Source: Synergistaceae bacterium (GTDB taxonomy: Bacteria > Synergistota > Synergistia > Synergistales > Synergistaceae). Taken from it: a DNA stretch of 64,000 nt. The translations under genes were made by a program, and so were the position numbers. The notes under the pieces were generated by a model that was not told the origin of the DNA, searched no databases, and saw only the letters and a list, made by a program, of their open reading frames with translations. Where the stretch lies: NCBI GenBank assembly GCA_030533085.1, contig JAUNJZ010000009.1, positions 1 to 64,000 on the forward strand. The letters are read 5' to 3'. Positions 15,937 through 34,718 of this stretch are shown here, one piece after another (the stretch's first letter is position 1; each line of letters opens with the position of its first letter).

Positions 15937-16707
15937 TTACAGAGTAGGCTTAATTAAAATGTCTACTACTTTTGCCCATCCATTTTCAACTGTCGAGTTG
16001 AATTCCCCACAGCTGTAGACAGCGCCTATAATCTTCGCAGAAGAGAACTCATCGAGTGGGTTTCTCCCATCGTAGCGCAAGGTAAGCGCAGCATCTCCTT
16101 TCAAGCATACACGACCTTTGTAGTCAGGGCTTGTGTCTCTACTCATCACACGTTTCAGATATATTCCTGGTCCGTCGCAATTTGGTACAACCTGTAATTG
16201 TAAGTGTGGATGCATTTGTACATCAGGCTCGGTGAAGTCTTTTAGATCTCTTCTATCTAGCTCAAGGTGTACGAATTCAATACCATTTTTTGTTGCAGTA
16301 GCAACAACCTTATCGACACCTTCAACCAAGTTCATTTCCGCATACACTTTTGGATATCCCCAAAGTTCTCTCCCTGCCCAAATTGCAAAATCTTCGCTTT
16401 CATATTCGAACATAGTATAGGCTCCGTAAATGTCTTTATACTTTACGGGGATACAGAAACTGCAATCATAGAAACCCATGAACCCGTCAGCATTCATAAA
16501 ATCCGATATGCTGATATTGAACACGTTGGAAACGTACTCAAAGGGTGTTGGTTCTAAGTATTTTTTGATTAAATCCGGGTCCGTTTCCGCCCAAACAGCC
16601 AAGCTCCTCATATTGGTGCATTTATACGGTACGAAAGGGGAGCGGAATAACGATGCCTGTATAGGATTATTATAGCCATCTTGTACCTTATATGGTCTTT
16701 CAATCAT
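15937..16707 (-). CDS. Acetoacetate-decarboxylase-superfamily protein, copy 1
   Basis: 256 residues, full length for the family. The Schiff-base lysine is visible in G-R-E-L-W-G-Y-P-K (K120). In classical acetoacetate decarboxylase that lysine is followed by a second Lys; here it is Val. Family members lacking the second Lys can catalyse other imine chemistry, so decarboxylation of a beta-keto acid is likely but not assured. AAAGGAGG precedes the ATG. It lies 21 bases after copy 2, last in an AT-rich five-gene minus-strand cluster of dehydrogenases and a betaine-type transporter. Confidence 0.88.
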   Translation of the reverse strand: MIERPYKVQDGYNNPIQASLFRSPFVPYKCTNMRSLAVWAETDPDLIKKYLEPTPFEYVSNVFNISISDFMNADGFMGFYDCSFCIPVKYKDIYGAYTMFEYESEDFAIWAGRELWGYPKVYAEMNLVEGVDKVVATATKNGIEFVHLELDRRDLKDFTEPDVQMHPHLQLQVVPNCDGPGIYLKRVMSRDTSPDYKGRVCLKGDAALTLRYDGRNPLDEFSSAKIIGAVYSCGEFNSTVENGWAKVVDILIKPTL

Positions 16708-16728
16708 AGGTTGAACCTCCTTTTATCT

Positions 16729-17511
16729 TTACTTAAACTCGTCTGGCCAAACAAGCGTATCTATCACGTGAGCCCAGCCATTGTACTCTGGAGTTGCTCT
16801 GTATTCCCCACAAGAATATGTACCACAAAGTACCTTAGCAGAAGAGAATTCATCCAATGGATTTGAGCCATCAAACCTCAATGTCAAGGCAGCGTTTCCA
16901 GTGATATTTATCCGGCCTCTATAGTCAGGCGATGTATCACGTTTCAAAACCCTTTTAATAAGCACGCCGCCAGGAGCTTCTCCACGGGGAATAACCTGGA
17001 GCAGTAAGTGTGGATACATTACGGCTTTAGGGGCCTGCAGTTCCTGCCCATGCTTGCGATCTACTTCAATATATACAAATTCGCGTCCGCGTTTTGAAAC
17101 GCTTGCCGTAACTTTATCAATACCCTCTGTGAATTGCATGTCAGCCAAAACTTTAGGATAGCCCCAAGCCTCACGGCCTAGGGCGACATAGTAGTCACCA
17201 CTTTCATACTCAAACATTGTGTAGCTACCATAAATGTTTTTGTACTTTACCGGAATTGTGAAAGAACAGTCATAGAATCCAGCAAAGCAGTTGGTAGCAT
17301 TCATATAGTCTGACACACTGATGTTAAAGACATTGGAAACATATTCAAAAGGTGTCGGCTCCAGATATTTTTTTATCAGTGCATCATCAACTTCTGCCCA
17401 AACAGATACGCTACGCATATTTGAACATGCATAAGGAACTAAAGGGTCAGTAAACAATGGTGCCTGAATTGGGTTATTACAACCGTTCTGTACTTCGTAT
17501 GGCCTTTTCAT
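16729..17511 (-). CDS. Acetoacetate-decarboxylase-superfamily protein, copy 2
   Basis: 260 residues, a tandem paralogue of copy 1, sharing long identical stretches such as K-K-Y-L-E-P-T-P-F-E-Y-V-S-N-V-F-N-I-S. The catalytic lysine is in G-R-E-A-W-G-Y-P-K (K120), again followed by Val. I chose the ATG at 17511 because AGGAGG lies seven bases upstream; a longer frame extends 28 residues without a ribosome site or family similarity. Keeping two diverged copies side by side suggests a hetero-oligomer or two related substrates. The gap to the next gene upstream is 125 bases. Confidence 0.88.
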   Translation of the reverse strand: MKRPYEVQNGCNNPIQAPLFTDPLVPYACSNMRSVSVWAEVDDALIKKYLEPTPFEYVSNVFNISVSDYMNATNCFAGFYDCSFTIPVKYKNIYGSYTMFEYESGDYYVALGREAWGYPKVLADMQFTEGIDKVTASVSKRGREFVYIEVDRKHGQELQAPKAVMYPHLLLQVIPRGEAPGGVLIKRVLKRDTSPDYRGRINITGNAALTLRFDGSNPLDEFSSAKVLCGTYSCGEYRATPEYNGWAHVIDTLVWPDEFK

Positions 17512-17636
17512 TACTTTTCCTCCTCTTATACTAGTTTTCTTGCTACATAAAAATACCTGCAATGTCAAGCATGTTATTTTATTACTGAAAATCACATATT
17601 ACATAGCAAGTATTTCTGTCCGAATAAACTGACCGT

Positions 17637-18410
17637 TTAAATACATGTGTGCCCACCATCAACAATAACATCAGACCCAGTTGTAAAGCTACTGGCATCA
17701 CTTGCCAAGTATATAAGAGCGCTTTGCAACTCCTCCGGATTACCCAGACGCCCCAGCGCAGTACGTTGAGTCCATATTTCGAAGAATTCATTTCCTTTAC
17801 AGTCATGGTCGAGCATTTCCGTATGCATGCTACCAGGACTTATGGAATTCACCCTGATGTTATATGGTCCCCACTCCCTAGCTACTGCCCTTGTAAAATT
17901 TAGCACGGCACTTTTGGCTGCACAGTAAGAACAGCTAGGTGAGTAGGCGGCGACATGGCCGTTCATTGACGAGATCGTAATGATAGATCCTTTTTTACGG
18001 GGGATCATAAGCCTTGCAGCGCCTCTAGCTGTTAAGAACACGCCTTCAACATCGACTGCGAATGTTTTCTTCCAATCTGCTAGAGGCATCTCATGGGCTA
18101 TGCCAGGGATGAAAACTCCGGCGTTGGCAACGCATATATCTAAAAAACGGAAAGCATTCTCAACCTCTTTGAACATTGTATCAACAGAAGCTTCATTTGT
18201 AACATCCACATACATTGGTAAAGTCTCTACCTTGCAATTAGCAGAAATCTCTTCAGCCACTATTTTTGCATTTTTAAGTCTAATATCTGCTACACAAACA
18301 TTTGCACCAGCTTCTGCTAAAGCGTGACAGAATATCCTTCCTAACCCTTGCCCTCCGCCAGTAACAAGTGCAGTCTTACCTTGTAGGTTTAATCTCTCAA
18401 TGATGCCCAT
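17637..18410 (-). CDS. SDR-family NAD(P)-dependent oxidoreductase, copy 1
   Basis: 257 residues, classical short-chain dehydrogenase. The cofactor motif T-G-G-G-Q-G-L-G is at 17-24, N-A-G at 96-98, catalytic Ser near 147 and Y-C-A-A-K (Y162, K166). It interconverts an alcohol and a ketone with NAD(H) or NADP(H). GAGGGG lies before the ATG, and it follows copy 2 by 22 bases. Only about a third of its residues match that neighbour, so the two probably act on different substrates or in opposite directions. In context it may supply or consume the keto compound handled by the decarboxylase-fold proteins. Confidence 0.9.
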   Translation of the reverse strand: MGIIERLNLQGKTALVTGGGQGLGRIFCHALAEAGANVCVADIRLKNAKIVAEEISANCKVETLPMYVDVTNEASVDTMFKEVENAFRFLDICVANAGVFIPGIAHEMPLADWKKTFAVDVEGVFLTARGAARLMIPRKKGSIITISSMNGHVAAYSPSCSYCAAKSAVLNFTRAVAREWGPYNIRVNSISPGSMHTEMLDHDCKGNEFFEIWTQRTALGRLGNPEELQSALIYLASDASSFTTGSDVIVDGGHTCI

Positions 18411-18432
18411 TTATTGACCCCTCTGCAAGCTC

Positions 18433-19248
18433 TTATTTTTTAGCATCTAACTTTGAATATGAATCCCACACAATCGTGTTTCCGCCATCAACGACCAATT
18501 CATGTCCATTGACATAGTCGGCGTCAGAAGATACGAGAAAGGCAACTGCATTGGCAATGTCTCTTGCCTCTCCAAGGCGGCCAGAGGGTGTGTCAGCAAT
18601 ATAGGCAGCTTCTCTTTCTTCTTGCCTGTTGAAGCGTTGCATAGAAGTGCGGGTCCAGCCAGGTGCTACCGCATTCACATTGATCCCGTAAGGGCCATAG
18701 TCTACAGCCATCTCTCTGGTTAATCCCGCCACGGCTGCCTTTGCTGCACAATATGCAGGTTGCCCACCGCAGCCTCGAAAAGCTGCAATTGACGAAGTGT
18801 TAACTATTTTCCCGCCAGTCCCTTGAGCAAGCATGATGCGACCTGCCTCTTGGCAACAATACCATGTTCCAACAAAGGTCACATTCATTACTGCTTCAAA
18901 CTCTGTGTCTGTTCTTTCATGCACCTTTGCGGAGCCTCGCGCATTTCCAGCGATGTTACAAACTATGTCAAGATGACCGTACTTATCCAGTGCAACTTTG
19001 AATGCATTCTGAACCTGAGCTTTATTTGAAACATCACATTGAACAAATATGGCATCTCCACATTTTGCGTTGATTAAATCCACAGTTGTTTTGTCAGCAT
19101 CAGACTCATAACCTCCCCTGTTTGCAATCTTTGATAAATCACAAGCCACAACCCTTGCTCCATCGGAAGCTAACCTCAATGCCACGGCTCTTCCAATACC
19201 AGAACTTGCGCCAGTTACAAGTGCAACTTTACCTTTTAAATCTGCCAC
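18433..19248 (-). CDS. SDR-family NAD(P)-dependent oxidoreductase, copy 2
   Basis: 271 residues. Cofactor motif T-G-A-S-S-G-I-G at 12-19, N-I-A-G near 98-101, catalytic Ser near 152 and Y-C-A-A-K (Y166, K170). An acidic residue after the second strand (A-C-D-L) favours NAD over NADP. The start is a GTG with GGGAGG nine bases upstream. The protein resembles the 3-oxoacyl-reductase/cyclitol-dehydrogenase branch of SDRs but no close function is recognisable. It lies 48 bases after the transporter gene in the same AT-rich cluster. Confidence 0.9.
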   Translation of the reverse strand: MADLKGKVALVTGASSGIGRAVALRLASDGARVVACDLSKIANRGGYESDADKTTVDLINAKCGDAIFVQCDVSNKAQVQNAFKVALDKYGHLDIVCNIAGNARGSAKVHERTDTEFEAVMNVTFVGTWYCCQEAGRIMLAQGTGGKIVNTSSIAAFRGCGGQPAYCAAKAAVAGLTREMAVDYGPYGINVNAVAPGWTRTSMQRFNRQEEREAAYIADTPSGRLGEARDIANAVAFLVSSDADYVNGHELVVDGGNTIVWDSYSKLDAKK

Positions 19249-19296
19249 AGTAATAGACCTCCCTTTCGTAAATTTAAGTTTTCTTACGCTATTTAG

Positions 19297-20871
19297 CTAA
19301 TTGCTAGTCGTCTCTGTGTTTCCCTTATACTCCACAGCATCATATTTTCCGGAAAGCATCATGGTAATTGCAATGATAAGCAGAACCATCAAAACATAGA
19401 ATGGCAAGCCGCAAGCGGCGCTCATGCTTTCAAGTGCTTTTGTTCCAGCATTTCCTAGAACAAAGAGGCATATTAGTGTCAGGGCGCAAATAACAACGGC
19501 CCAGAAGAAACGAAGGTATATGTCTGCCCCCTTCTCATTTTCATCAACAGTCTTTGAAGTAAGAGAAGCAATGGAGAATGTCATGTTATCTGTCATGGTG
19601 GTGAATGAAATCAACAGTGTGAACAACAACGTTATTCCTCCAAGACTACCAAGAGGGAATCGTTCGAGCAAGTGATAGACGGACATTGGCACGCCAACCT
19701 TGTTTAGCAAATCCATCATTTTTGCCCCCTCGAAAGCATCCAGCCAAATCGCGTTTCCACCCAGCGCCACAAACATTACCACAACCCACAGTGTTGGCGG
19801 AATGAGACTTAAAAGCAACATCTGGCGATATGTACGTCCTCTGGAAATCGTAACGAAGAACATGGATGTAACTGGGGTGTATACACAGGCCCAAACAAAA
19901 AACAGCGCAGACCAGTTCGTTGACCAGCCCTTATCAATGTTGAAAGGGTCAACATTTGTCATCATAGGGATAAAATTAGTAAACATGTCTCCCACTGCTT
20001 CCACATATAATCCTATTAAAAACTTAGTGGGTCCTGCAATGAAAAGGAAAAGAAACAATGCTATATAAAAATAGCCATTTAAGTCTGCTAATACTGTTAT
20101 GCCTTTTTTAATACCCCGAATGGAAGAGCATGTAAATACTGCAGAGATGAGCACAACAATCCAGAAATATACCATATTATTGGGTTTAATTCCAAATACA
20201 TATTCAACTCCTCCGGCCATTTGCATTGCACCAAAACCAAAGGACGTTACTATACCGCCAATTAAGGAGACAACGCAAACAATATCCACAACGCGCCCTG
20301 GCCACTTAAAAGTATATGCCTTTAGCAAAGGGTAAAGAGCAGAGCTTGGCTTGAATGGAAGACCTCTGTCAAAACACATATACCCGATTCCAACACTCCA
20401 AAGTGCAATACAGGCGAAAAATACATATGCCCAGTGAGTTGTGGCAAACCCAATAGCTGCAGAAGCTGCGGCAGGGGAAAGCGCGGCATTGCCAAATAAT
20501 GCTGGAGGATAATAGTAATGATATAGAGGCTCTGCTACTCCCCAAAACAGTATGCCTGAGCCGATAGAACCAGTTATTATCACCGCAAGATAAGAATATA
20601 TACCAACTACAGGTTTTTTGTACTTATCTCCTCCAACAATCCTGCTGGCAAAAGGCGTACATGCAAAAGCGTAAGTTGCAATTATAATTGCGCCAGAGAC
20701 AGGCAAGTAAAACCATGTAAACTGGCCTAAACAGAAACTTACAACAACTTTTGAACAATCAATAAATAGCTGCTCAAAAAATATCCCTACAAAAACCACA
20801 ACTCCAAGAATTGACACTATTGGATAAAATGTCTTAGTATCAACTCCATTCAAAAAATTAGCTTTCTGCAT
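19297..20871 (-). CDS. BCCT-family transporter with atypical substrate box
   Basis: 524 residues with about twelve membrane helices. The family motif I-S-R-G-R-T-Y-R follows helix 8, marking a betaine/carnitine/choline transporter. Aligned by eye to BetP, the helix-8 aromatic cluster (W-A-W-W-I-S-W-S-P) is W-x-A-x-x-Y here, and in helix 4 only one of the three box aromatics is kept (T-H-W-A-Y-V-F-F-A). The cargo or mode (symport or antiport) may therefore differ. The ATG at 20871 has AGAGG eight bases upstream. It is the first gene of the cluster, divergent from a LysR gene. Confidence 0.9.
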   Translation of the reverse strand: MQKANFLNGVDTKTFYPIVSILGVVVFVGIFFEQLFIDCSKVVVSFCLGQFTWFYLPVSGAIIIATYAFACTPFASRIVGGDKYKKPVVGIYSYLAVIITGSIGSGILFWGVAEPLYHYYYPPALFGNAALSPAAASAAIGFATTHWAYVFFACIALWSVGIGYMCFDRGLPFKPSSALYPLLKAYTFKWPGRVVDIVCVVSLIGGIVTSFGFGAMQMAGGVEYVFGIKPNNMVYFWIVVLISAVFTCSSIRGIKKGITVLADLNGYFYIALFLFLFIAGPTKFLIGLYVEAVGDMFTNFIPMMTNVDPFNIDKGWSTNWSALFFVWACVYTPVTSMFFVTISRGRTYRQMLLLSLIPPTLWVVVMFVALGGNAIWLDAFEGAKMMDLLNKVGVPMSVYHLLERFPLGSLGGITLLFTLLISFTTMTDNMTFSIASLTSKTVDENEKGADIYLRFFWAVVICALTLICLFVLGNAGTKALESMSAACGLPFYVLMVLLIIAITMMLSGKYDAVEYKGNTETTSN

Positions 20872-21009
20872 CACAGTCACCTCTTCATAATATTTTTAAT
20901 TATTTGTTGCCATTTGAACTTGCCAATACTGAAAAGTTTTTTGCGAAACATTTTTCAGATCAATTTTTTATCACCTCCTAAAACAGCTCTGGATTTTGCG
21001 TAAATACCC

Positions 21010-21024
21010 TTATAGCATTTATAA
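21010..21024. promoter_or_regulatory. LysR-type box in the divergent transporter/regulator promoter
   Basis: TTATA-GCATT-TATAA is a perfect five-base inverted repeat with T-N11-A spacing, 38 bases upstream of the LysR start and 138 bases upstream of the transporter start. That is a usual place for a LysR autoregulatory site. Confidence 0.4.
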
Positions 21025-21062
21025 TTAAGTAAATTACAACTACAAGAGGGGGGAAGTTACGC

Positions 21063-21956
21063 ATGGAAAATTTACGCTACAAGGCATTTGTCCGTTCCGT
21101 AGAGACAGGAAGCTTTACTAAAGCAGCAAGTAATATGAGCTATACACCAGCCGGGGTCTTTCGACTTGTTAATGCTTTCGAAGATGAAATTGGCATTCAA
21201 CTGTTTATCAGGGACAACACGGGTGTGCGTTTAACAAAAGAGGGAAGTTTGATATACCAGCAAGTCAAAAAAGTGCAATTTCAAGAAAATAATCTGCTTA
21301 CATTGATTAACGATATTAAAGGAATAACAACAGGTGAGATAACAATAGGAGCTTATTCAAGTATCGCAGTCTGTTGGTTGCCTAGTATTATCAAACGTTT
21401 CAATGATCGTTTCCCTTCTGTTATACTTCACATCTGGGAAAGTGCAAATTATGAAGAACTTTATGGTTGGCTTGAAAGTAATATTATCGATATATGTTTT
21501 TTTAGTCGCGGAGAACTTGACCAATTTTTTGACTGGATTCCACTGAGTGACGATCCTTTGTTAGCAATTCTGCCACAGTCTCATCCGTATGCACAAAGCG
21601 CATCGTTTCCCATTGAACGTTTTAAGGAAGAAAAGCTAATAGTGCAAAGCAATGGGAATGATGATTTGGTTATTAACATCTTGCAAAGACATGATGTCTT
21701 ACCACAGATTACCCACACAACCCTGAGTAGCCTTGCCGCCCTAAGCCTTGTAGAAAAGGGACTTGGCGTATGTCTGATGAATAAGCTCTTTATTCAAAAA
21801 CAGTCTTTTAATGTGCAGGCAATTCCATTGCTCCCTCCTCAGTTTATAACCATGGGCATAGCAGTAACAAATTTAGAAACAGCTTCACCTTCGGTAAGAA
21901 AATTTATACAGGTTGCTCGTGAAACACTACATGCGGAAAAAGTGGAGGGAATTTGA
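21063..21956 (+). CDS. LysR-family regulator of the decarboxylase/BCCT cluster
   Basis: 297 residues: winged helix-turn-helix at about 1-60 (F-T-K-A-A-S-N-M-S-Y-T-P-A-G) and a LysR effector domain with I-G-A-Y-S-S-I-A-V-C-W-L-P near residue 97. GAGGGG precedes the ATG. It is transcribed away from the BCCT transporter across a 190-base gap, the classical layout of a LysR regulator and its target. It is as AT-rich as the cluster and probably arrived with it. The inducer would be predicted to be the transported compound. Confidence 0.9.
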   Translation: MENLRYKAFVRSVETGSFTKAASNMSYTPAGVFRLVNAFEDEIGIQLFIRDNTGVRLTKEGSLIYQQVKKVQFQENNLLTLINDIKGITTGEITIGAYSSIAVCWLPSIIKRFNDRFPSVILHIWESANYEELYGWLESNIIDICFFSRGELDQFFDWIPLSDDPLLAILPQSHPYAQSASFPIERFKEEKLIVQSNGNDDLVINILQRHDVLPQITHTTLSSLAALSLVEKGLGVCLMNKLFIQKQSFNVQAIPLLPPQFITMGIAVTNLETASPSVRKFIQVARETLHAEKVEGI

Positions 21957-22602
21957 TGTAAAAAATTAACGTAAATATCTATGTTTTTCGATTATTGTGA
22001 AACAAGATGTTTTTGCGTGCCTCCTTTCCTGCTTGGATATAGTTTCAGCATGCCCCTATTCACTGACATATTGCAGACAAATATTCTTCCATTCATATCA
22101 AGAAATTATTTCAAGAACATATTGTACGCTAACAACCGCATTGAAACACAAACAACCTAAGAAATTAAATCAAATATTTAATTTTCATAGTACGTGTCAA
22201 TATAATTAATTTTGCATATACTATTATTGTTTACACAAATACATATTGTATAAACAACAACTATTTTCTTTTACAATTTTAGAATACATGCATATGAATA
22301 TTCTGTAAATTGATATCTTGATAAGGTTGCTTTTACAAAATATTAAAATGATGGCTACTCTCGCCTTTGATACATTCCAGCATAAAAAATTTCCTAAAGC
22401 CGTGCTGTTAAGACATTATGGGGTCTTTAGTCTTTTCGTGAAAGAGAGTTTCTTTTTATGCAATTTCGGTTTCCTGTTATTACTGGTTTGATAGCCTGTC
22501 CTGAAGTCGAATCTTCCGCCGCCTTCTGGGAAAAATCAAAAGGCGCGCTTCGGGTGATATAATGAATCCGCTGTCATTTTGTCGGGGGAATGGAGTGTCG
22601 TC
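21957..22602. other. AT-rich gap, no gene seen
   Basis: 646 bases, very AT-rich to about 22480 and then abruptly GC-rich. Short frames here have no ribosome site or recognisable similarity. The composition step near 22480 marks the right limit of the AT-rich island. Confidence 0.6.
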
Positions 22603-26816: not shown

Positions 26817-28055
26817 ATGGCATTAACTCAAGTGATAATCAATAAAATAAAACCAACGCAAAAAATAGAAATGCACTGGGATGACGGCTCAGGAGGGGTA
26901 TCAAATCTTGCTATAAAAATTCGTCCAACTGGTAAACGCTCATGGCACTTGTATTATAAAAATCCAACGGATGGCAAGGAAAGACAAGATAAAATCGCAC
27001 CGGGAACCATACCGCTACAGCGCGCGCGTGAAATCGCGGTTTTATGGAATGGAGAAATAGCCAGAGGCAAAGATCCGCGCAATGTAATGAAGCCTCAGCA
27101 AGCGGCGCCCCCTGCAGCCGTAATAAAAGATCCAACACTAGGCGAAATCCGCGCTGCATATGAAGCCTGGCTTTTGCCTGACGACGGCGGCGAACCTCCG
27201 CTGAAAAGCGGCAAGACGACCTTACGCACAATAGATAGCTTCAAGGCATATTACCAGATACCTCTTTCTCAGTTCACTGTCGCTGAAATCAGAGATTGGA
27301 TAGCGAACTGCCGAGCCAGAAATAACAAAGGAATATCTATCAATCGGCGTATCGCGACTCTTCAAGCAATGCTGAGTTGGGCAAAAAGGGAAGGATTGAT
27401 ATCCCAGGACTATAGATTTCCCCGAATCGCCAAGCAAGCAACGACCGACAGCGACGTTAAGATAAGATACCTGCATGATGATGAGCGTAAGCGCCTATAT
27501 GCCGCTTTGAAAGAACGCGAGCAGAAGCAAGGCAAGGATTACCTTAAAATCGCCGTAATCATTGCAAATTATTCCGGCATTCGCAGGGGCGCGCTGCTGG
27601 GGCTGCGCTGGGGAGATATTAAAACACTGCTCGACGGCAGCCAATCTATACACTTATCGCCAAGGGCGGCAAAATCGAAAAAAAGCTATGATTTGCCGCT
27701 TTCCAACACTGTGATAAAAGCTCTTGAAGAATGGCGCGTATACAGTGAACAGACATGGGGGGCAATTAAACCGGATGATTATATAATTCGCTATGGAAAA
27801 GCCGGCACGCCGATAACAGACTTAAAACACGCTTGGCATTCTATTTTAAAAGAGGCAAATATACAGAATTTCCGCTGGCACGATTTGAGACACGACTTTG
27901 CCAGCCAGCTTGTTATGAAGGGGAGCGATCTCTATATGGTACAGCGCTTATTGACCCACGAATCGATTCAAATGACACAGCGATATGCTCACTTAGCACC
28001 AAAAGAGCAGCAAGCCGCCGTGAATAAATTAAACGACCTCCTGCCCAACCAATAA
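26817..28055 (+). CDS. Tyrosine-recombinase integrase
   Basis: 412 residues in the P4/CP4-57-like layout: an N-terminal DUF4102-type arm-binding domain (about 1-90), a SAM-like core-binding domain (about 105-200) and the catalytic domain. Catalytic residues are visible as R256 in S-G-I-R-R-G, H355-x-x-R358 in H-D-L-R-H, H381 and nucleophile Y390 in Q-R-Y-A-H-L. GGAGGG precedes the ATG. It lies 170 bases from the tRNA-Thr fragment, consistent with tRNA-targeted integration. All key residues are intact, so the enzyme may be active. Confidence 0.95.
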   Translation: MALTQVIINKIKPTQKIEMHWDDGSGGVSNLAIKIRPTGKRSWHLYYKNPTDGKERQDKIAPGTIPLQRAREIAVLWNGEIARGKDPRNVMKPQQAAPPAAVIKDPTLGEIRAAYEAWLLPDDGGEPPLKSGKTTLRTIDSFKAYYQIPLSQFTVAEIRDWIANCRARNNKGISINRRIATLQAMLSWAKREGLISQDYRFPRIAKQATTDSDVKIRYLHDDERKRLYAALKEREQKQGKDYLKIAVIIANYSGIRRGALLGLRWGDIKTLLDGSQSIHLSPRAAKSKKSYDLPLSNTVIKALEEWRVYSEQTWGAIKPDDYIIRYGKAGTPITDLKHAWHSILKEANIQNFRWHDLRHDFASQLVMKGSDLYMVQRLLTHESIQMTQRYAHLAPKEQQAAVNKLNDLLPNQ

Positions 28056-28510: not shown

Positions 28511-29065
28511 CTATAGAGGCCAGATTTTATTATCAAAATCATCTTTATTTTTCCCCGCTATTACCCATATGGCTTTAGCGGTTTTTCTTGTAATATCTAT
28601 TTCGCCGTTACGGGCTTTCATGATTATGTCAACAATTCGCAGACAATGGATATCATCTATTCCGGTGTTCAATCTTGAATCAATGATTTGCTGCAAATTA
28701 TTCTCATCTGTAGCGAATATAGTAATCCCCGTTGCTTTGGCGTACGCCAGCGAGCAAACTTCGCCTTTGTTCTTATTCGGCCTGCCTGGATCGAGCGTCA
28801 CCGCGGCCAGCATGTTATAAGAGAGGTTATATACGACAAGATCATTATTACTGAGTTCCCTTTCGTCGACGATCTTCACAGTACCGTCTTCCACAAGTTT
28901 TTTCAGCTGTTTCACGGCGCTAGGCGGCATTTTTACCTCGTTGTATGCGCATGTGTGCATATATATATCATCGGCTGCAAGGGGCAATACGTTTAAAAGA
29001 AACTTGTATTTATCGCTGCCGCCAAGTTTAATGCACAGATCCGCATCGATTATGATCCTACTCAA
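28511..29065 (-). CDS. PIN-domain protein, third gene of the Xre-ImmA module
   Basis: 184 residues. A PIN-like nuclease is suggested by the opening I-I-I-D-A-D-L-C-I-K-L with an early acidic pair, a central glutamate in G-E-V-C-S-L-A-Y-A and a late F-A-T-D-E. A TTG start at 29065 is preferred: GGAGGGG lies seven bases upstream and the TTG overlaps the stop of the preceding gene by eight bases. An upstream frame would add 42 residues read from inside the ImmA gene. A nuclease toxin or effector is likely; the exact PIN subfamily is not identified. Confidence 0.75.
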   Translation of the reverse strand: MSRIIIDADLCIKLGGSDKYKFLLNVLPLAADDIYMHTCAYNEVKMPPSAVKQLKKLVEDGTVKIVDERELSNNDLVVYNLSYNMLAAVTLDPGRPNKNKGEVCSLAYAKATGITIFATDENNLQQIIDSRLNTGIDDIHCLRIVDIIMKARNGEIDITRKTAKAIWVIAGKNKDDFDNKIWPL

Positions 29066-29906
29066 GCTCTCGCCCCTCCATAATAATATCGAGTTCCTCT
29101 TCGGAGGGCGGATCGTATATGGCCGGCGACGAAGCGCCGATATCCTCCGGCTTGAGGTCATTGACGCGCAGCAGATATTCAAGCTTTTCATAAGTTATGA
29201 GTCCCGCTTCATAAGCGTTGGCCGCCAATTCAACCATATTGTCAATGGCGATACGTTCATCCGCTTCAGGCGTCGGTATGGAGTAAATCTTTCTGTATTT
29301 CGCTATGTTTTCGTCTGTTTCAGCAAGGAAACACCCTCTGGCTTTTTTGTCAATCACGCCGCTTTCATGCAGGCGTTTTACCATGGTGCGGTACGGAACG
29401 GTGAACAGGGCAGCCATAACTAAAATATCCTTAATTGTAATCCTGGCTGGGTCGATATCATAAAATCTCATCTCCTGCGACAGCATATCAGCATCGACAA
29501 GAAATTCGGCGGCAAAACGATTTGCTTTCAGCTCATTACGATTTTCGCCGGCTTCAGCCAGAACAGCTTCCGTAACAGCATCGTCAGAGCTGTCATACCA
29601 GATATGATACAGCTCATGCGCCGCAGCGAATATCTGACAATCAATGGGTATGGAGGTATTTATCGCCACAAACGGCTTTTCACTTGCCGCTCCGCCGCTG
29701 GAGCCGCGCATATGAGTAAAGCCCCACGGAGCCTTTTTGCCTAACGGGTAATAGATAACTCTGGCGTACATGCTTAGGATGTGAAAAAGCTGTACGCCGA
29801 TAACGTCATATGTTTTTTTACATTCGCCAAGCTTCGACCGCGCTTTTGTTTTGATCTCCTCAATTTCACAGGCAGTCAGCTCCGGAAGCGCATTCTCTCT
29901 ATCCAT
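29058..29906 (-). CDS. ImmA/IrrE-family metallopeptidase
   Basis: 282 residues with the zinc-peptidase motif H-E-L-Y-H (H97, E98, H101) in the context F-A-A-A-H-E-L-Y-H-I-W-Y-D. The family (COG2856) cleaves a partner Xre repressor in phage, ICEBs1-like elements and Deinococcus, and also occurs as a toxin-antitoxin component. The C-terminal 120 residues (about 140-282) are helical and acidic with no known fold. It overlaps the upstream Xre gene by eight bases and the downstream PIN gene by eight, so all three are translationally coupled. Confidence 0.88.
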   Translation of the reverse strand: MDRENALPELTACEIEEIKTKARSKLGECKKTYDVIGVQLFHILSMYARVIYYPLGKKAPWGFTHMRGSSGGAASEKPFVAINTSIPIDCQIFAAAHELYHIWYDSSDDAVTEAVLAEAGENRNELKANRFAAEFLVDADMLSQEMRFYDIDPARITIKDILVMAALFTVPYRTMVKRLHESGVIDKKARGCFLAETDENIAKYRKIYSIPTPEADERIAIDNMVELAANAYEAGLITYEKLEYLLRVNDLKPEDIGASSPAIYDPPSEEELDIIMEGRELE

Positions 29907-30249
29907 TCACAAGCTCCTCCAACAAATGAATTTCGTCGATAGCCGAGCGAATAAGATCGACCTTCTGCCTCGTTTCAATATCTGAAATCTTCCCCATGAA
30001 ACTCAGATCGCGGTCATTGGCCGAATTTACATCATCGCTCATAAGCAGAAGCGAGTCTGTCGTGACTCCAAGGATAGAGGCAATTCGCGCCAACTCGTTC
30101 ACATTGATCGCCTTATATCCCTTGATTATTTTATTCATCACCTGCTTGGATATCGAAAGGGCGTTCGCCAGCTCCTGCTGACTCATTCCTTTTAACTGTA
30201 AGCGTTCCTGAATATTAGCTCCAACCTGAGCAAAATCCGTCGCGTACAT
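29899..30249 (-). CDS. Xre-family HTH repressor
   Basis: 116 residues with an N-terminal helix-turn-helix (G-M-S-Q-Q-E-L-A-N-A-L-S-I-S, about 19-32) and the usual helices through V-T-T-D-S-L-L near 70. The C-terminal 45 residues are a short helical extension that may dimerise or be the cleavage target of the downstream metallopeptidase. GGAGGG lies upstream of the ATG and a good promoter lies 30 bases upstream. It is the first gene of the operon and the presumed autorepressor/antitoxin. Confidence 0.9.
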   Translation of the reverse strand: MYATDFAQVGANIQERLQLKGMSQQELANALSISKQVMNKIIKGYKAINVNELARIASILGVTTDSLLLMSDDVNSANDRDLSFMGKISDIETRQKVDLIRSAIDEIHLLEELVNG

Positions 30250-30438: not shown

Positions 30439-32154
30439 TTAGTCGCCCCGCTTAACCTGCGTTATTTGGTTCGCTATATAAAAATTCTCACAATGATAAC
30501 CTATCTTGTATATTTCCTGCCGATCTGCCAGGGCGAGCTCACAGAGAAGCTTTTCTCCCAGAGAGGTCAGTTCGCTCCATCCTCTGACGTGCGTTATGAT
30601 TTCCTGCGCGGCTTTCTGCGCGGAGTTGTCAAGCGTTATCTTCCCTTCTGTCCCCAGCGCGCGCGCCCGGCGGGCCAAACCGGACAGGAATGTCTCCAGA
30701 AGACGCGGCCTGCAGGCGCTCGCGTCTTCACTGGAAAAGCAAAGCAGCGCACAGTCGCGTCCTATAATAGCTCTCAACAGCTGTTCATCTTCAAATGTCA
30801 GCCCTGATGCTTTTCCGCCGCTCTTTTCCGGATTGAAGCCCAGGCAGGCGCGTTTCTGCTCTTTTTCCGTCTCATAAATAACGAATACCGGTATAGATGA
30901 GCAGTTCACAGCGCGTCCCTCCAGGTCCGCCCAAACGCCATCGCACAAAAGCTGAGAGAGCCGCGCAGCGCTGCCCTCGCTGAGTCCAGTTCCGGAAAGG
31001 CCTTTAAAGATCAGGACTCTGCTTTGGCCGTTTATTATCCGCGCAGCCAGTCTGTTGCTATATCCCACAGCGCTTTCCAGTCCGCAGGTTAATATTTCCC
31101 TGTCAGTATAGCCCATCAGCGCGGCAGTTTGTCTCGCTATCCACTCAAGCAAACTTGCGTCTTCTCCGGCAAGGGTTACGGCTATGAGAGGGCCTCTGTG
31201 TCGTGCGGTTCTGGTAACGGCTCTCATGATAGCCTCTTTGTATTCCGAGATTGCCGGCCAGGAGGATAAGAGGTCATTCAGCTTATCCGGCAAGTCACGG
31301 TAGCGTTGCCTGCCCGCTGCCGTCAACGCCGCCGCGCCTTGACTGTTTCCAAAGCGTACTGCAAGCGCTTTGTTTACCGCTTCCGCGCCGAGTTCGCTGC
31401 TTTGTCCGAGCGAACGCAGCCAGCCTGCGCTGAAGTCCAGCAAGGATATCGCCCGATCCGGGTCGTTGCGTTCAGGCAGGTATTTCCTGCCAGCGTTGAC
31501 GAGCTTTTCCGCAGCCTCCTCCGACAGCGCTATTCCTGGATATCTGGCCTCGCAGACGTTTCTCAGAATCTGGAGGACCCTGTCTTTACTCGGCGCCGCG
31601 ATACGCACCGCCTCAAAACGTCGTGAGAGGGCGGCGTCACCTTCAACGTACTTTCTGTACTCATCAACTGTCGTCGCTGTGATCACCTGGATATCGCCGC
31701 GGGTCAGGAACGGTTTGGCAATGTTGCCAACAGAATCCGCTCCGTTTGAACAGAGGCGATGCCCCTCGTCTATGAAGAGTATAAGTTCGCTGCGCGCCGC
31801 CTCTTCAAAGAGGTTTTTGAGCAGAACGCCTGCGTCGTAGGGGCCGCGGCAGTCTTTCAACAGCCCGTCGAGCGATATTTCCACGATGCGTCTGCCTCGT
31901 AATCCAGGATACCCGCCGCGGACAAGTTCGCGGCCGAAGGCTTCAACAAGCGCGGTTTTGCCTACTCCGGCTCCTCCTGTCAAAATCGCGTTGTTGTGCG
32001 CGTGGCTGGCGAGAATGCCGGCCAGCCTGTCCATCAGAGTTCGCTCTATCAGGTATTCGTCTTTTCCATATGACGGGAGAGTCAGTTCTCTTCCGAATTT
32101 TCCAGCCAGAGGCGGGAGCACCGCACCAGTGTTCCTGTTTGTGTATGTCTGCAT
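30439..32154 (-). CDS. ClpA/ClpB-like AAA+ protein with active first ring and degenerate second ring
   Basis: 571 residues, shorter than ClpB (about 860): the N-domain and middle coiled coil are missing. Ring 1 is complete, with Walker A G-G-A-G-V-G-K-T (60-67), Walker B L-I-L-F-I-D-E (124-130) and arginine finger A-L-S-R-R-F-E (near 178). Ring 2 (from about 280) aligns in outline with ClpB D2 but lacks both nucleotide motifs: Walker A is replaced by L-A-G-E-D-A-S and Walker B by V-L-I-F-K-G. AGGAGG precedes the ATG. It lies 89 bases after the VirD4-like gene. It is presumably a remodelling ATPase with a dedicated partner; no ClpP-binding loop is recognisable. Confidence 0.85.
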   Translation of the reverse strand: MQTYTNRNTGAVLPPLAGKFGRELTLPSYGKDEYLIERTLMDRLAGILASHAHNNAILTGGAGVGKTALVEAFGRELVRGGYPGLRGRRIVEISLDGLLKDCRGPYDAGVLLKNLFEEAARSELILFIDEGHRLCSNGADSVGNIAKPFLTRGDIQVITATTVDEYRKYVEGDAALSRRFEAVRIAAPSKDRVLQILRNVCEARYPGIALSEEAAEKLVNAGRKYLPERNDPDRAISLLDFSAGWLRSLGQSSELGAEAVNKALAVRFGNSQGAAALTAAGRQRYRDLPDKLNDLLSSWPAISEYKEAIMRAVTRTARHRGPLIAVTLAGEDASLLEWIARQTAALMGYTDREILTCGLESAVGYSNRLAARIINGQSRVLIFKGLSGTGLSEGSAARLSQLLCDGVWADLEGRAVNCSSIPVFVIYETEKEQKRACLGFNPEKSGGKASGLTFEDEQLLRAIIGRDCALLCFSSEDASACRPRLLETFLSGLARRARALGTEGKITLDNSAQKAAQEIITHVRGWSELTSLGEKLLCELALADRQEIYKIGYHCENFYIANQITQVKRGD

Positions 32155-32243
32155 TTTTATTTTCCTCCTCTGTAACTATTTTTACTTATAGTCTGATTCC
32201 GGTTTTTCGTTTTTGATGCTGTCGTTCAATCTCGCCGCTGACC

Positions 32244-33650
32244 TTAGGAAGCGTCCTTCCATACCTTTGCCTGGCCGCCGTCGGCAATTACTTCTATATC
32301 GCTTTGGGGGCTGTTCATCTCCGTCCGCGCGGGAGGAAGAGCGTACCAGAGCGGCGCTCTTTTTTTCTTTATTGCTGAAAACGGTCTTTTGACGCATTTT
32401 TTCTCGGAGACCGGCGGTTCCCCGCGCGTCAGGTATTCCAGCCCGCCTCGCCGGTCGTCGCGCACGAGTATACCGCCGAACAGCTGGCTCAACTCGTAAT
32501 ATCGGTTTTGCACGCTGCCGCGACTCGCGAAGAGCCCCTCAAGGGCAACGTCTGGCGTAATATGCCAGAATGTCAGTTCCGTTTTGCCTTCTATCGCTGC
32601 CACCGCGTCCTCTTTGCTAACGGCGGAGTCCCTCGCCACATACTCTAAATCTGTGCAAGCAAGCAGCGCATTCAAAACACCTGGGAAGAGTCCCTGTATG
32701 CGTTCAAAGGGATGTAGGATATTCCAGTATCCCGGATCTGAAGCCAACACGTTGACTTTCGCTCCAAGCCCTGCCGCCGCCGCAGCCGCGCCAAGCAGCA
32801 GCAACGATGCGCTTCCGCGGTCGGCGTCTCCGTTCCCGGAGTTTCCGACACAGAGTATCCTTTTTTCTGTATAGCCGGTGATAAATTCTTCCAGGTCAAA
32901 GTTACCGCTGCGATCAGCAATATCCGCGCCGTTTCTTTCCAGTACACGCAGCGCGGCCAGGAATGCAGAGGCATTGGATTCATAGGATTGCAATATACAA
33001 CGCTGCGTATTGCTGCTACTACTTACGCTGGAACCACGCGCCAGAGTACCTTCAAAGAGACGTCTGTGCCAGAAAGCTCCGTCATCTTCCATTGCCTGTT
33101 GCAGCCTATGCTCATACCCCAGGAGTAAGCCGCTCGAATCCCCCTCAGCGGCAGAACCCATGGCCATGGTCAACTCTGTTGTTTGCCGCGCGAAAGACAG
33201 CAGACAGTTGTGTCCCTTGCTTGAGACGCGGTAATCCTCGCGCGCCATTAGGGCCGCATAGTAGATGTGCTGAGCCGCCAATCTTTTTGACGAAGTCGTC
33301 CAGAACTGATCATTGCTGCCCTTGTCCGCCTTAGTCACACAAAATATCTCCGCAAGCCGTGAAATAAGCGATGGGATATCCCGTCCGAATTCATCATGTT
33401 TGAAAACCGGGGCCAGACAGTCAGGAGCGACGCTTTCTGTGCTGCGCCAGTCCACAAGATACAACTGGTCGCCGAATTCTTCATAGATGTCGCCGTCCTT
33501 GTCAAAAACTATGAATAGGTCCTCACCTCCGCCGTGCAAAGCGTCAAAAACAAGCGCGCGCAGCGTCCGGCGCTGTTCCTGGCTGTCGCCAAACATACAG
33601 CTGTTTTTATTCAAAAGGTCGTTTACTGTTATTCTGCGAAATTCTTCCAT
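32244..33650 (-). CDS. Unknown protein resembling a VirD4/TraG coupling ATPase with degenerate P-loop
   Basis: 468 residues, not confidently recognised. The segment L-F-I-V-F-D-K-D-G-D-I-Y-E-E followed by an acidic L-V-D-W-R, then N-D-Q-F-W-T-T-S-S-K-R-L-A-A-Q, follows the order of the VirD4/TraG core after its Walker A (D-P-K-G-E-x-Y, then W-E-x-A-A). Where the P-loop should be it reads F-G-D-S-Q-E-Q-R-R-T-L, which cannot bind phosphate normally, and no Walker B is evident. A G/A-rich hydrophobic stretch lies near 275-290. The next gene encodes an AAA+ ATPase, so this may be its adaptor. Homology is an eye-level inference. Confidence 0.6.
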   Translation of the reverse strand: MEEFRRITVNDLLNKNSCMFGDSQEQRRTLRALVFDALHGGGEDLFIVFDKDGDIYEEFGDQLYLVDWRSTESVAPDCLAPVFKHDEFGRDIPSLISRLAEIFCVTKADKGSNDQFWTTSSKRLAAQHIYYAALMAREDYRVSSKGHNCLLSFARQTTELTMAMGSAAEGDSSGLLLGYEHRLQQAMEDDGAFWHRRLFEGTLARGSSVSSSSNTQRCILQSYESNASAFLAALRVLERNGADIADRSGNFDLEEFITGYTEKRILCVGNSGNGDADRGSASLLLLGAAAAAAGLGAKVNVLASDPGYWNILHPFERIQGLFPGVLNALLACTDLEYVARDSAVSKEDAVAAIEGKTELTFWHITPDVALEGLFASRGSVQNRYYELSQLFGGILVRDDRRGGLEYLTRGEPPVSEKKCVKRPFSAIKKKRAPLWYALPPARTEMNSPQSDIEVIADGGQAKVWKDAS

Positions 33651-33781: not shown

Positions 33782-34377
33782 GTCGTTTTATTTTTATCTG
33801 TCGTTGATTAGATCAGCCGATGCGCCCAGGAAGAGGAATCAGAGAAACTGAGAAAGCCCAGCCATGAGCGTCACGGAGATACAAATATGCCTTCCTGACC
33901 AGTTACATCCCGGCATTCGATTGTCCCTACACATCATAGCTGTCTTCCCCCTTTTGACTTTTGTTATTCAGCCATAGATATTTTAATACTACTTCCGGCG
34001 ATATTGCCTTCACAGCTCCTTGAAGTTCGATATCACCCAATGATTGCATTATACAACGCGGTTGAAGAAGAAAACAATAGCTAGTGAAGGGTAATTTGTA
34101 TTTTATGTCGTTTTCCGTTATATATTTATGATTCCCAAGAACGCGGCGCAGGCGATAGTATTGCCGCCAAAGGCGTGAACGCCGATGGTGAAAGGCTTCT
34201 AGTTCCGTCATGAAGCCATAAACATTTTATTGTCTATAAAAACAGTTTTGTTCGCATGTACCCGCAGAAGCCAGGGGCAGCCAGCTTCTGTTACATATGC
34301 AAACTTTCAGCGACTTATAATTAATAGACAGCCTGCTCACGTGAAAAAATGACATATCAAGAGGGAGTGCATAAAGA
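33782..34377. other. Gap with no convincing gene
   Basis: 596 bases. A 94-residue minus-strand frame at 33927-34211 has an ATG but no ribosome site and no recognisable similarity, so I do not call it. Composition is mixed, as expected for decayed DNA between the mobile region and the methyltransferase locus. Confidence 0.4.
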
Positions 34378-34718
34378 TGAAAGAGAGTAAGTGCAAGATC
34401 TTCCTTTTATCGGGTTTTCTTGGCAGCGGCAAGACGACGTTGCTTAAACATCTTCTTAAGGCCCATCCCGAGGAAGAACGGGCAGTCGTGCTCATGAATG
34501 AGTTCGGCAAGTCCGGTGTCGATAGCGACGTAGTGCGTAGGAACGACTTGGGGATCATCAAGATAAGCAGTGGGGCAATCTTTTGCGCCTGTGCGAATGG
34601 AGATTTTTTGCGTGGCCTTTACACGATTCCCAAAGATTACAAACCGACAATTCTGCTGGTTGAGGCAAGCGGCGTAGCTGACGCCACTGATATGAAAAAT
34701 GCCGCCCTTTTCAATTGA
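34378..34718 (+). pseudogene. N-terminal fragment of a CobW/COG0523-type GTPase
   Basis: 113 codons. The P-loop G-F-L-G-S-G-K-T-T-L-L-K is at about 13-24, M-N-E-F-G follows near 40, and a Cys motif (F-C-A-C-A-N) near 67 replaces the usual C-I-C-C. It stops at a position that is only the first third of a normal CobW-type GTPase (300 or more residues). A good ribosome site (GAGGGAG) and ATG remain, so a short product could still be made. CobW-like GTPases accompany corrinoid methyltransferase loci, which fits the adjoining relic on the other strand. Confidence 0.7.

Follow-up and report, generated by a model that had tools for sequence, protein, structure and literature searches.

What does a Clp-type ATPase with a dead second ring do beside a protein that resembles a conjugative coupling protein but has no P-loop? 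The question is raised by two adjacent genes in a 64,000-nucleotide stretch of DNA from a Synergistaceae bacterium, hereafter the window. The answer preferred here, to which a probability of roughly 40% is assigned, is that the two genes would encode a single Clp-derived machine, in which the VirD4-fold protein acts as an adaptor and the dead ring docks the protease ClpP.

Both genes lie on the reverse strand at the places given in the preliminary description of this DNA, and their open reading frames are confirmed. The first gene of the pair (32244-33650) encodes a soluble protein of 468 aa, a putative pseudo-ATPase of the VirD4/TrwB fold as judged from its reading frame, a TrwB fold match, and its relatives. 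The second (30439-32154) encodes a 571-aa AAA+ protein whose NCBIfam and PDB matches mark it as Clp-derived. The two are separated by a gap of 89 nt, and the ATG of the second gene is preceded by the Shine-Dalgarno sequence GAGGAGG (32164-32170, reverse strand). The pair was described as lying in an integrase-associated region next to an Xre/ImmA/PIN module, and so it does. A tyrosine integrase with an N-terminal arm domain (26817-28055, forward strand; PF13356 and PF00589) marks one end of the region, and the Xre, ImmA/M78, and PIN-like genes (28511-30249, reverse strand) match the three PADLOC models (A, B, and C) for the candidate defense system PDC-M69 with E-values of 2e-41, 4e-102, and 7e-76, respectively. 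No tRNA gene was found beside the integrase, and the search for att repeats around the island returned only short, low-grade repeats and no convincing att pair. Among the window's open reading frames, no relaxase or type IV secretion genes were noticed. A CobW-like gene shortened to 113 aa (34377-34718, forward strand) may have been truncated at the opposite boundary of the insertion. Farther away, positions 16000-22000 show a G+C content of 38-45%, compared with about 50-57% elsewhere, and contain dehydrogenase-like and LysR-like genes.

The N-terminal part of the AAA+ protein, ring 1 (residues 1-275; 31330-32154, reverse strand), is of the Clp type over residues 12-275, with E-values of 1e-43 to 1e-36 against the NCBIfam ClpV, ClpB, and ClpA families and of 6e-36 against ClpB in the PDB. 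Its nucleotide motifs are intact in the alignment, as previously described: the Walker A motif GGAGVGKT occupies residues 60-67 (31954-31977), the Walker B motif LILFIDEGH carries its Asp-Glu pair at residues 129-130 (31765-31770), and the arginine fingers are present as SRRF. The absence of the Clp N-domain and of the middle coil is confirmed as well. What ring 1 has lost is the pore-loop aromatic (KYRG in ClpC), and this residue is missing in all four lineages of the family described below. In addition, an N-terminal motif of the form LPPLxxK[FY]Gxx[LI] (residues 13-24 in the window copy) is kept in the window protein, in genome G039, and in the Synergistaceae copies, and is not found in ClpB or ClpC; it may be a contact site for the partner.

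The C-terminal half of the protein (residues 276-571; 30442-31329, reverse strand) is far less recognizable. Pfam gives no matches in it, and direct HMM and hhalign comparison with the ring 2 of ClpC-type proteins is borderline (hhalign P 0.037). Its origin is made clear by a bridging relative, the 593-aa AAA+ protein of genome G027, which aligns collinearly with the window protein. The ring 2 of this relative matches ClpB with 39% identity over 151 aa (E 1e-22), its similarity to ClpC is also clear, and its motifs are already odd—GPRGCGKRT in place of Walker A and VVIVDVHED in place of Walker B. Along the same alignment, which extends to ClpB and ClpC, the window copy has AGEDASLLEW where Walker A reads GPTGVGKTEL, and VLIFKGLSG where Walker B reads VILFDEIEK. 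The ring-2 pore loop GYVG is lost in both proteins. Hence, the second ring appears no longer able to use ATP, in agreement with the earlier observation that both of its nucleotide motifs are gone. The structural model of the 571-aa protein points in the same direction: the top Foldseek match is ClpC from ClpC-ClpP complexes, over the full length and with an E-value of 3e-20, with the reservation that ring 2 is modeled poorly and the model as a whole superimposes badly.

The 468-aa partner has no family match in Pfam, NCBIfam, PHROGs, or PADLOC, including none to the coupling-protein families PF02534 and PF10412, and searches of PDB sequences by phmmer and hmmsearch gave nothing meaningful. It belongs to a VirD4-like family absent from all the protein-family libraries searched; no profile search assigned it to an unrelated family. 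An hhalign comparison of the family with the type IV coupling proteins of Synergistota was also empty, which is weak evidence against a VirD4 identity because the coupling-protein alignment is shallow (Neff 1.5). The VirD4 likeness claimed for this protein has thus no support at the level of sequence similarity and is supported by the predicted fold. A structure model built from five sequences reaches moderate confidence (pLDDT 61, pTM 0.67), and its four best PDB matches in Foldseek are all TrwB, a relative of VirD4 (best E-value 6.6e-6, probability 1.00; TM 0.45-0.49 on superposition), followed at lower confidence by VirB4 and then by HerA of SIR2-HerA. The model therefore supports a VirD4/TrwB fold. 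As previously noted, the P-loop is broken in the window copy, where the site reads FGDSQEQRR (33567-33593, reverse strand). This is not a peculiarity of the copy: the aligned site reads LGDDEEKER in G039, LGAREGVAA in G027, and LGxSERKxAS-like in the Synergistaceae copies, and GxxxxGK[ST] is found in none of the four lineages. The loss is therefore a trait of the whole family and probably ancestral to it.

Relatives of the 468-aa protein occur in 12 of 188 Synergistota genomes. They make up 13 loci, the genome of the window having another pair on its contig C75, and at every one of these loci the AAA+ gene follows the VirD4-like gene directly and on the same strand. The genes were described as a two-gene system, and this co-occurrence, in each genome with a relative, bears the description out. 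Four lineages can be distinguished. The first is the window copy. The second comprises ten chromosomal operons of Synergistaceae, in all of which the AAA+ protein has a single ring (about 272 aa) and a third gene, for a protein of about 190 aa, is present. The third is G039, with a single-ring AAA+ gene followed by clpP. The fourth is G027, from another family of the same order as the window organism, whose AAA+ protein has two rings and which also has an HTH protein upstream. In ring-1 trees, the four lineages form one clade apart from the ClpB and ClpC proteins of Synergistota (support 100/99, and 100/100 with G027), the window, G039, and G027 proteins being long branches. The window shows no third gene matching either the 190-aa protein or the HTH domain of G027 and G039, and the similarity of the 190-aa protein to these HTH proteins is not significant. 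The second pair of the window genome (L027:9870-12729, contig C75) is chromosomal; it has a 193-aa third gene of unknown family and adjoins an eut/grd-like cluster. In the G039 operon (L035:4561-10156), a VirD4-like gene whose frame is broken twice is followed by the single-ring AAA+ gene, the extra clpP, and a gene for an 894-aa protein, the N-terminal HTH of which resembles a 249-aa protein adjoining the G027 pair. A scan of genome contigs with the motifs DANDKFF and QRCIKMQ gave four hits, all in Synergistota; because these motifs are specific to the chromosomal type, the result does not restrict how far the wider family may extend. Searches of openly licensed papers found the pair described nowhere. 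The combination, which the preliminary description did not recognize, appears to be a conserved gene pair of Synergistota that had not been filed before.

The ClpP-binding Clp ATPases ClpA, ClpC, and ClpX dock the protease through a loop containing the tripeptide [LIV]G[FL], which ClpB does not do. The 571-aa protein of the window has exactly one such tripeptide, LGF at residues 438-440 (30835-30843, reverse strand), found by tripeptide scan within the dead ring 2 and aligned with the ClpP-docking loop of ClpC. In G027, too, there is a single one, IGF, aligned with the same loop, and the single-ring protein of G039 has one, VGF, near its C terminus. All ClpC-type proteins checked contain LGF or MGF, and the host ClpB does not. 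When the window protein is shuffled, a tripeptide falls within five residues of the docking place in 3.3% of cases, and 63% of the shuffles hold one anywhere; the agreement between lineages is the stronger argument for a docking tripeptide. A tripeptide at the ClpC docking place of a ring without nucleotide motifs appears to be new here. The earlier statement that no ClpP gene is nearby is true of the window locus, which has none, the organism's one ordinary clpP being located elsewhere; it does not extend to all relatives, as G039 has a clpP about 20 nt after the AAA+ gene (PF00574, E 4e-77) in addition to its housekeeping copy. The Ser, His, and Asp residues of this extra ClpP are apparently in place. 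Docking to ClpP is not a function of the whole family, because the tripeptide is absent from all nine Synergistaceae single-ring copies scanned; none of these has a clpP neighbor, and the third gene is found instead. The loss of the pore-loop aromatics from both rings argues furthermore against ordinary threading of substrates into ClpP.

In the preferred reading, the AAA+ protein would run on ring 1 alone, and ring 2, dead as a motor, would be kept in some lineages as a docking surface for ClpP by way of the LGF loop. The soluble 468-aa pseudo-ATPase would be the adaptor or substrate receptor, replacing what the AAA+ protein has lost—the Clp N-domain, the M-domain, and the pore-loop aromatics. 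At the level of sequence, this proposal is built on the pair and its constant gene order, the ring-1 motifs, the losses in ring 2 and in the P-loop, the tripeptides LGF, IGF, and VGF, and the extra clpP in the operon of one relative. From these we infer a physical complex, docking of ClpP in the window organism, the adaptor role, and a target. Several observations count against the proposal: the structure model behind the TrwB match is of moderate confidence, clpP is missing from the window locus, and the VirD4-like frames of G039 and G027 are broken. As to the target, components of incoming conjugative elements are a guess, made plausible by the partner's retained resemblance in shape to conjugative coupling proteins. 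Such a pseudo-coupling protein would take the place of the Clp adaptor domains, read the signals addressed to coupling proteins, and feed a Clp/ClpP-type complex, thereby providing proteolytic immunity to conjugation; in this full form the idea is improbable. With PF02534 absent from the ten Synergistaceae carriers and PF10412 from all 12 carriers, the partner does not serve as an accessory to resident conjugation systems of these types.

Almost as likely as the ClpP-docking machine is a switch or remodeling complex that is independent of ClpP. Herein, ATP use by ring 1 would alter a VirD4-fold scaffold that binds nucleic acid or protein, and the ClpP of G039 would be a lineage-specific addition. 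AAA+ proteins act as such switches in several defense and transposition systems. The retention of the ring-1 ATPase motifs alongside the loss of pore-loop aromatics in all lineages speaks for a switch, and the single-ring Synergistaceae copies, with their constant 190-aa third gene and no docking tripeptide, as well as a VirD4 fold left without a motor by the family-wide loss of the P-loop, agree with it. It leaves unexplained, however, why LGF and IGF are found at the ClpP place of a motif-less ring 2 in the window copy and in G027, and why G039 has an extra clpP.

A defense role is possible under either mechanism. As an explanation in its own right, an anti-phage or anti-plasmid module, with the partner as the sensor of invading DNA or of a conjugation apparatus and the AAA+ protein as the executor or trigger of the response, is rather unlikely. 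The evidence in its favor is largely positional: the window copy, a divergent second pair in its genome, lies between host genes and the integrase with its candidate defense module. Furthermore, the family is sporadic among Synergistota, and the pair has an HTH protein as a neighbor in both G027 and G039. However, no PADLOC model matches the 468-aa family, those that the ATPase matches are generic AAA models with weak scores, and neither a nuclease nor another obvious effector accompanies the pair. The 468-aa protein has no relatives in phages, plasmids, or viral contigs, and the 571-aa protein has no close relative in viral contigs and only ordinary Clp-like matches in phage records. Most copies are, moreover, located at recurring chromosomal sites beside metabolic genes.

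These sites lead to another doubtful alternative, namely that the pair serves Synergistaceae in quality control or regulation within the cell, unrelated to mobile elements, and that the window copy was acquired horizontally. Ten of the 13 loci are chromosomal and recur in the same host-gene contexts, on the pepF side or the eut/grd side; the operons show short gene overlaps, extend over six genera, and are under purifying selection in those compared (dN/dS 0.06-0.22). Placement and selection would suit an accessory system of the cell no less than a mobile defense island. Against a cellular system stand its patchy presence even within Synergistaceae (10 of 53 genomes) and the fold of the partner, which points to DNA-transfer machinery. 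That the pair is a degenerate remnant of a ClpC and a coupling protein, both in decay and kept side by side by chance, would account for the many lost catalytic motifs and for the broken frames in G039 and G027, which are assembly errors or decay, but is very improbable given identical losses and gene order in four lineages and open frames in 11 of 13 copies, and decay of the pair is rejected on the grounds of its conservation and of the dN/dS of the chromosomal genes.

Among the known systems that come closest to the pair are the counter-invader systems anchored by HerA/FtsK proteins, related to DndFGH and to BREX, in which a protein of the HerA/FtsK-VirD4 superfamily is likewise found beside AAA+ and HTH proteins (PMC10853773, PMC12839542). 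There, a translocase function is ascribed to the HerA/FtsK protein, whose partners are ORC/Cdc6-type ATPases and nucleases (PMC10853773, PMC12839542), whereas the VirD4-fold protein of the pair has no P-loop and its partner is of the Clp type. A term search in PMC12839542 gave no mention of VirD4 or Clp. A dead and a live AAA+ domain are also combined in one protein of a multigene system in the vWA-MoxR FtsH ternary systems (PMC7159879). Their domains are of the FtsH type, unlike those described here, and their vWA and MoxR partners have no counterpart in the Synergistota pair.

With VirD4, TraG, and TrwB, the 468-aa protein shares the order of the core segments and a predicted fold with a helical insertion that resembles the all-alpha domain. 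It differs from them by having no membrane helices, no P-loop, and no detectable sequence similarity, and a Clp-type ATPase is its neighbor instead of a relaxase or secretion channel, neither of which was seen near the pair. With ClpC, ClpA, and ClpB, the AAA+ protein shares the ring-1 sequence, the lid, and the arginine fingers, and in the window and G027 also the two-ring layout and, as in ClpC, the LGF or IGF loop. Unlike them, the family has neither N- nor M-domain and no pore aromatic in ring 1, its ring 2 (where present) contains neither Walker motifs nor a pore loop, its ring 1 forms a separate clade, and a VirD4-like partner gene always adjoins. In Clp ATPases, substrates are usually bound by N-domains and adaptors, and an active second ring docks ClpP; to our knowledge, these ATPases are not known to work together with VirD4-type machines. 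In the pair, a dead ring would retain the docking loop alone, and a look-alike of a coupling protein would take the place of the adaptors. The pair offers a natural case in which to ask whether a protease can be retained by a pseudo-ATPase ring alone and whether motors of DNA transfer have been converted into receptors.
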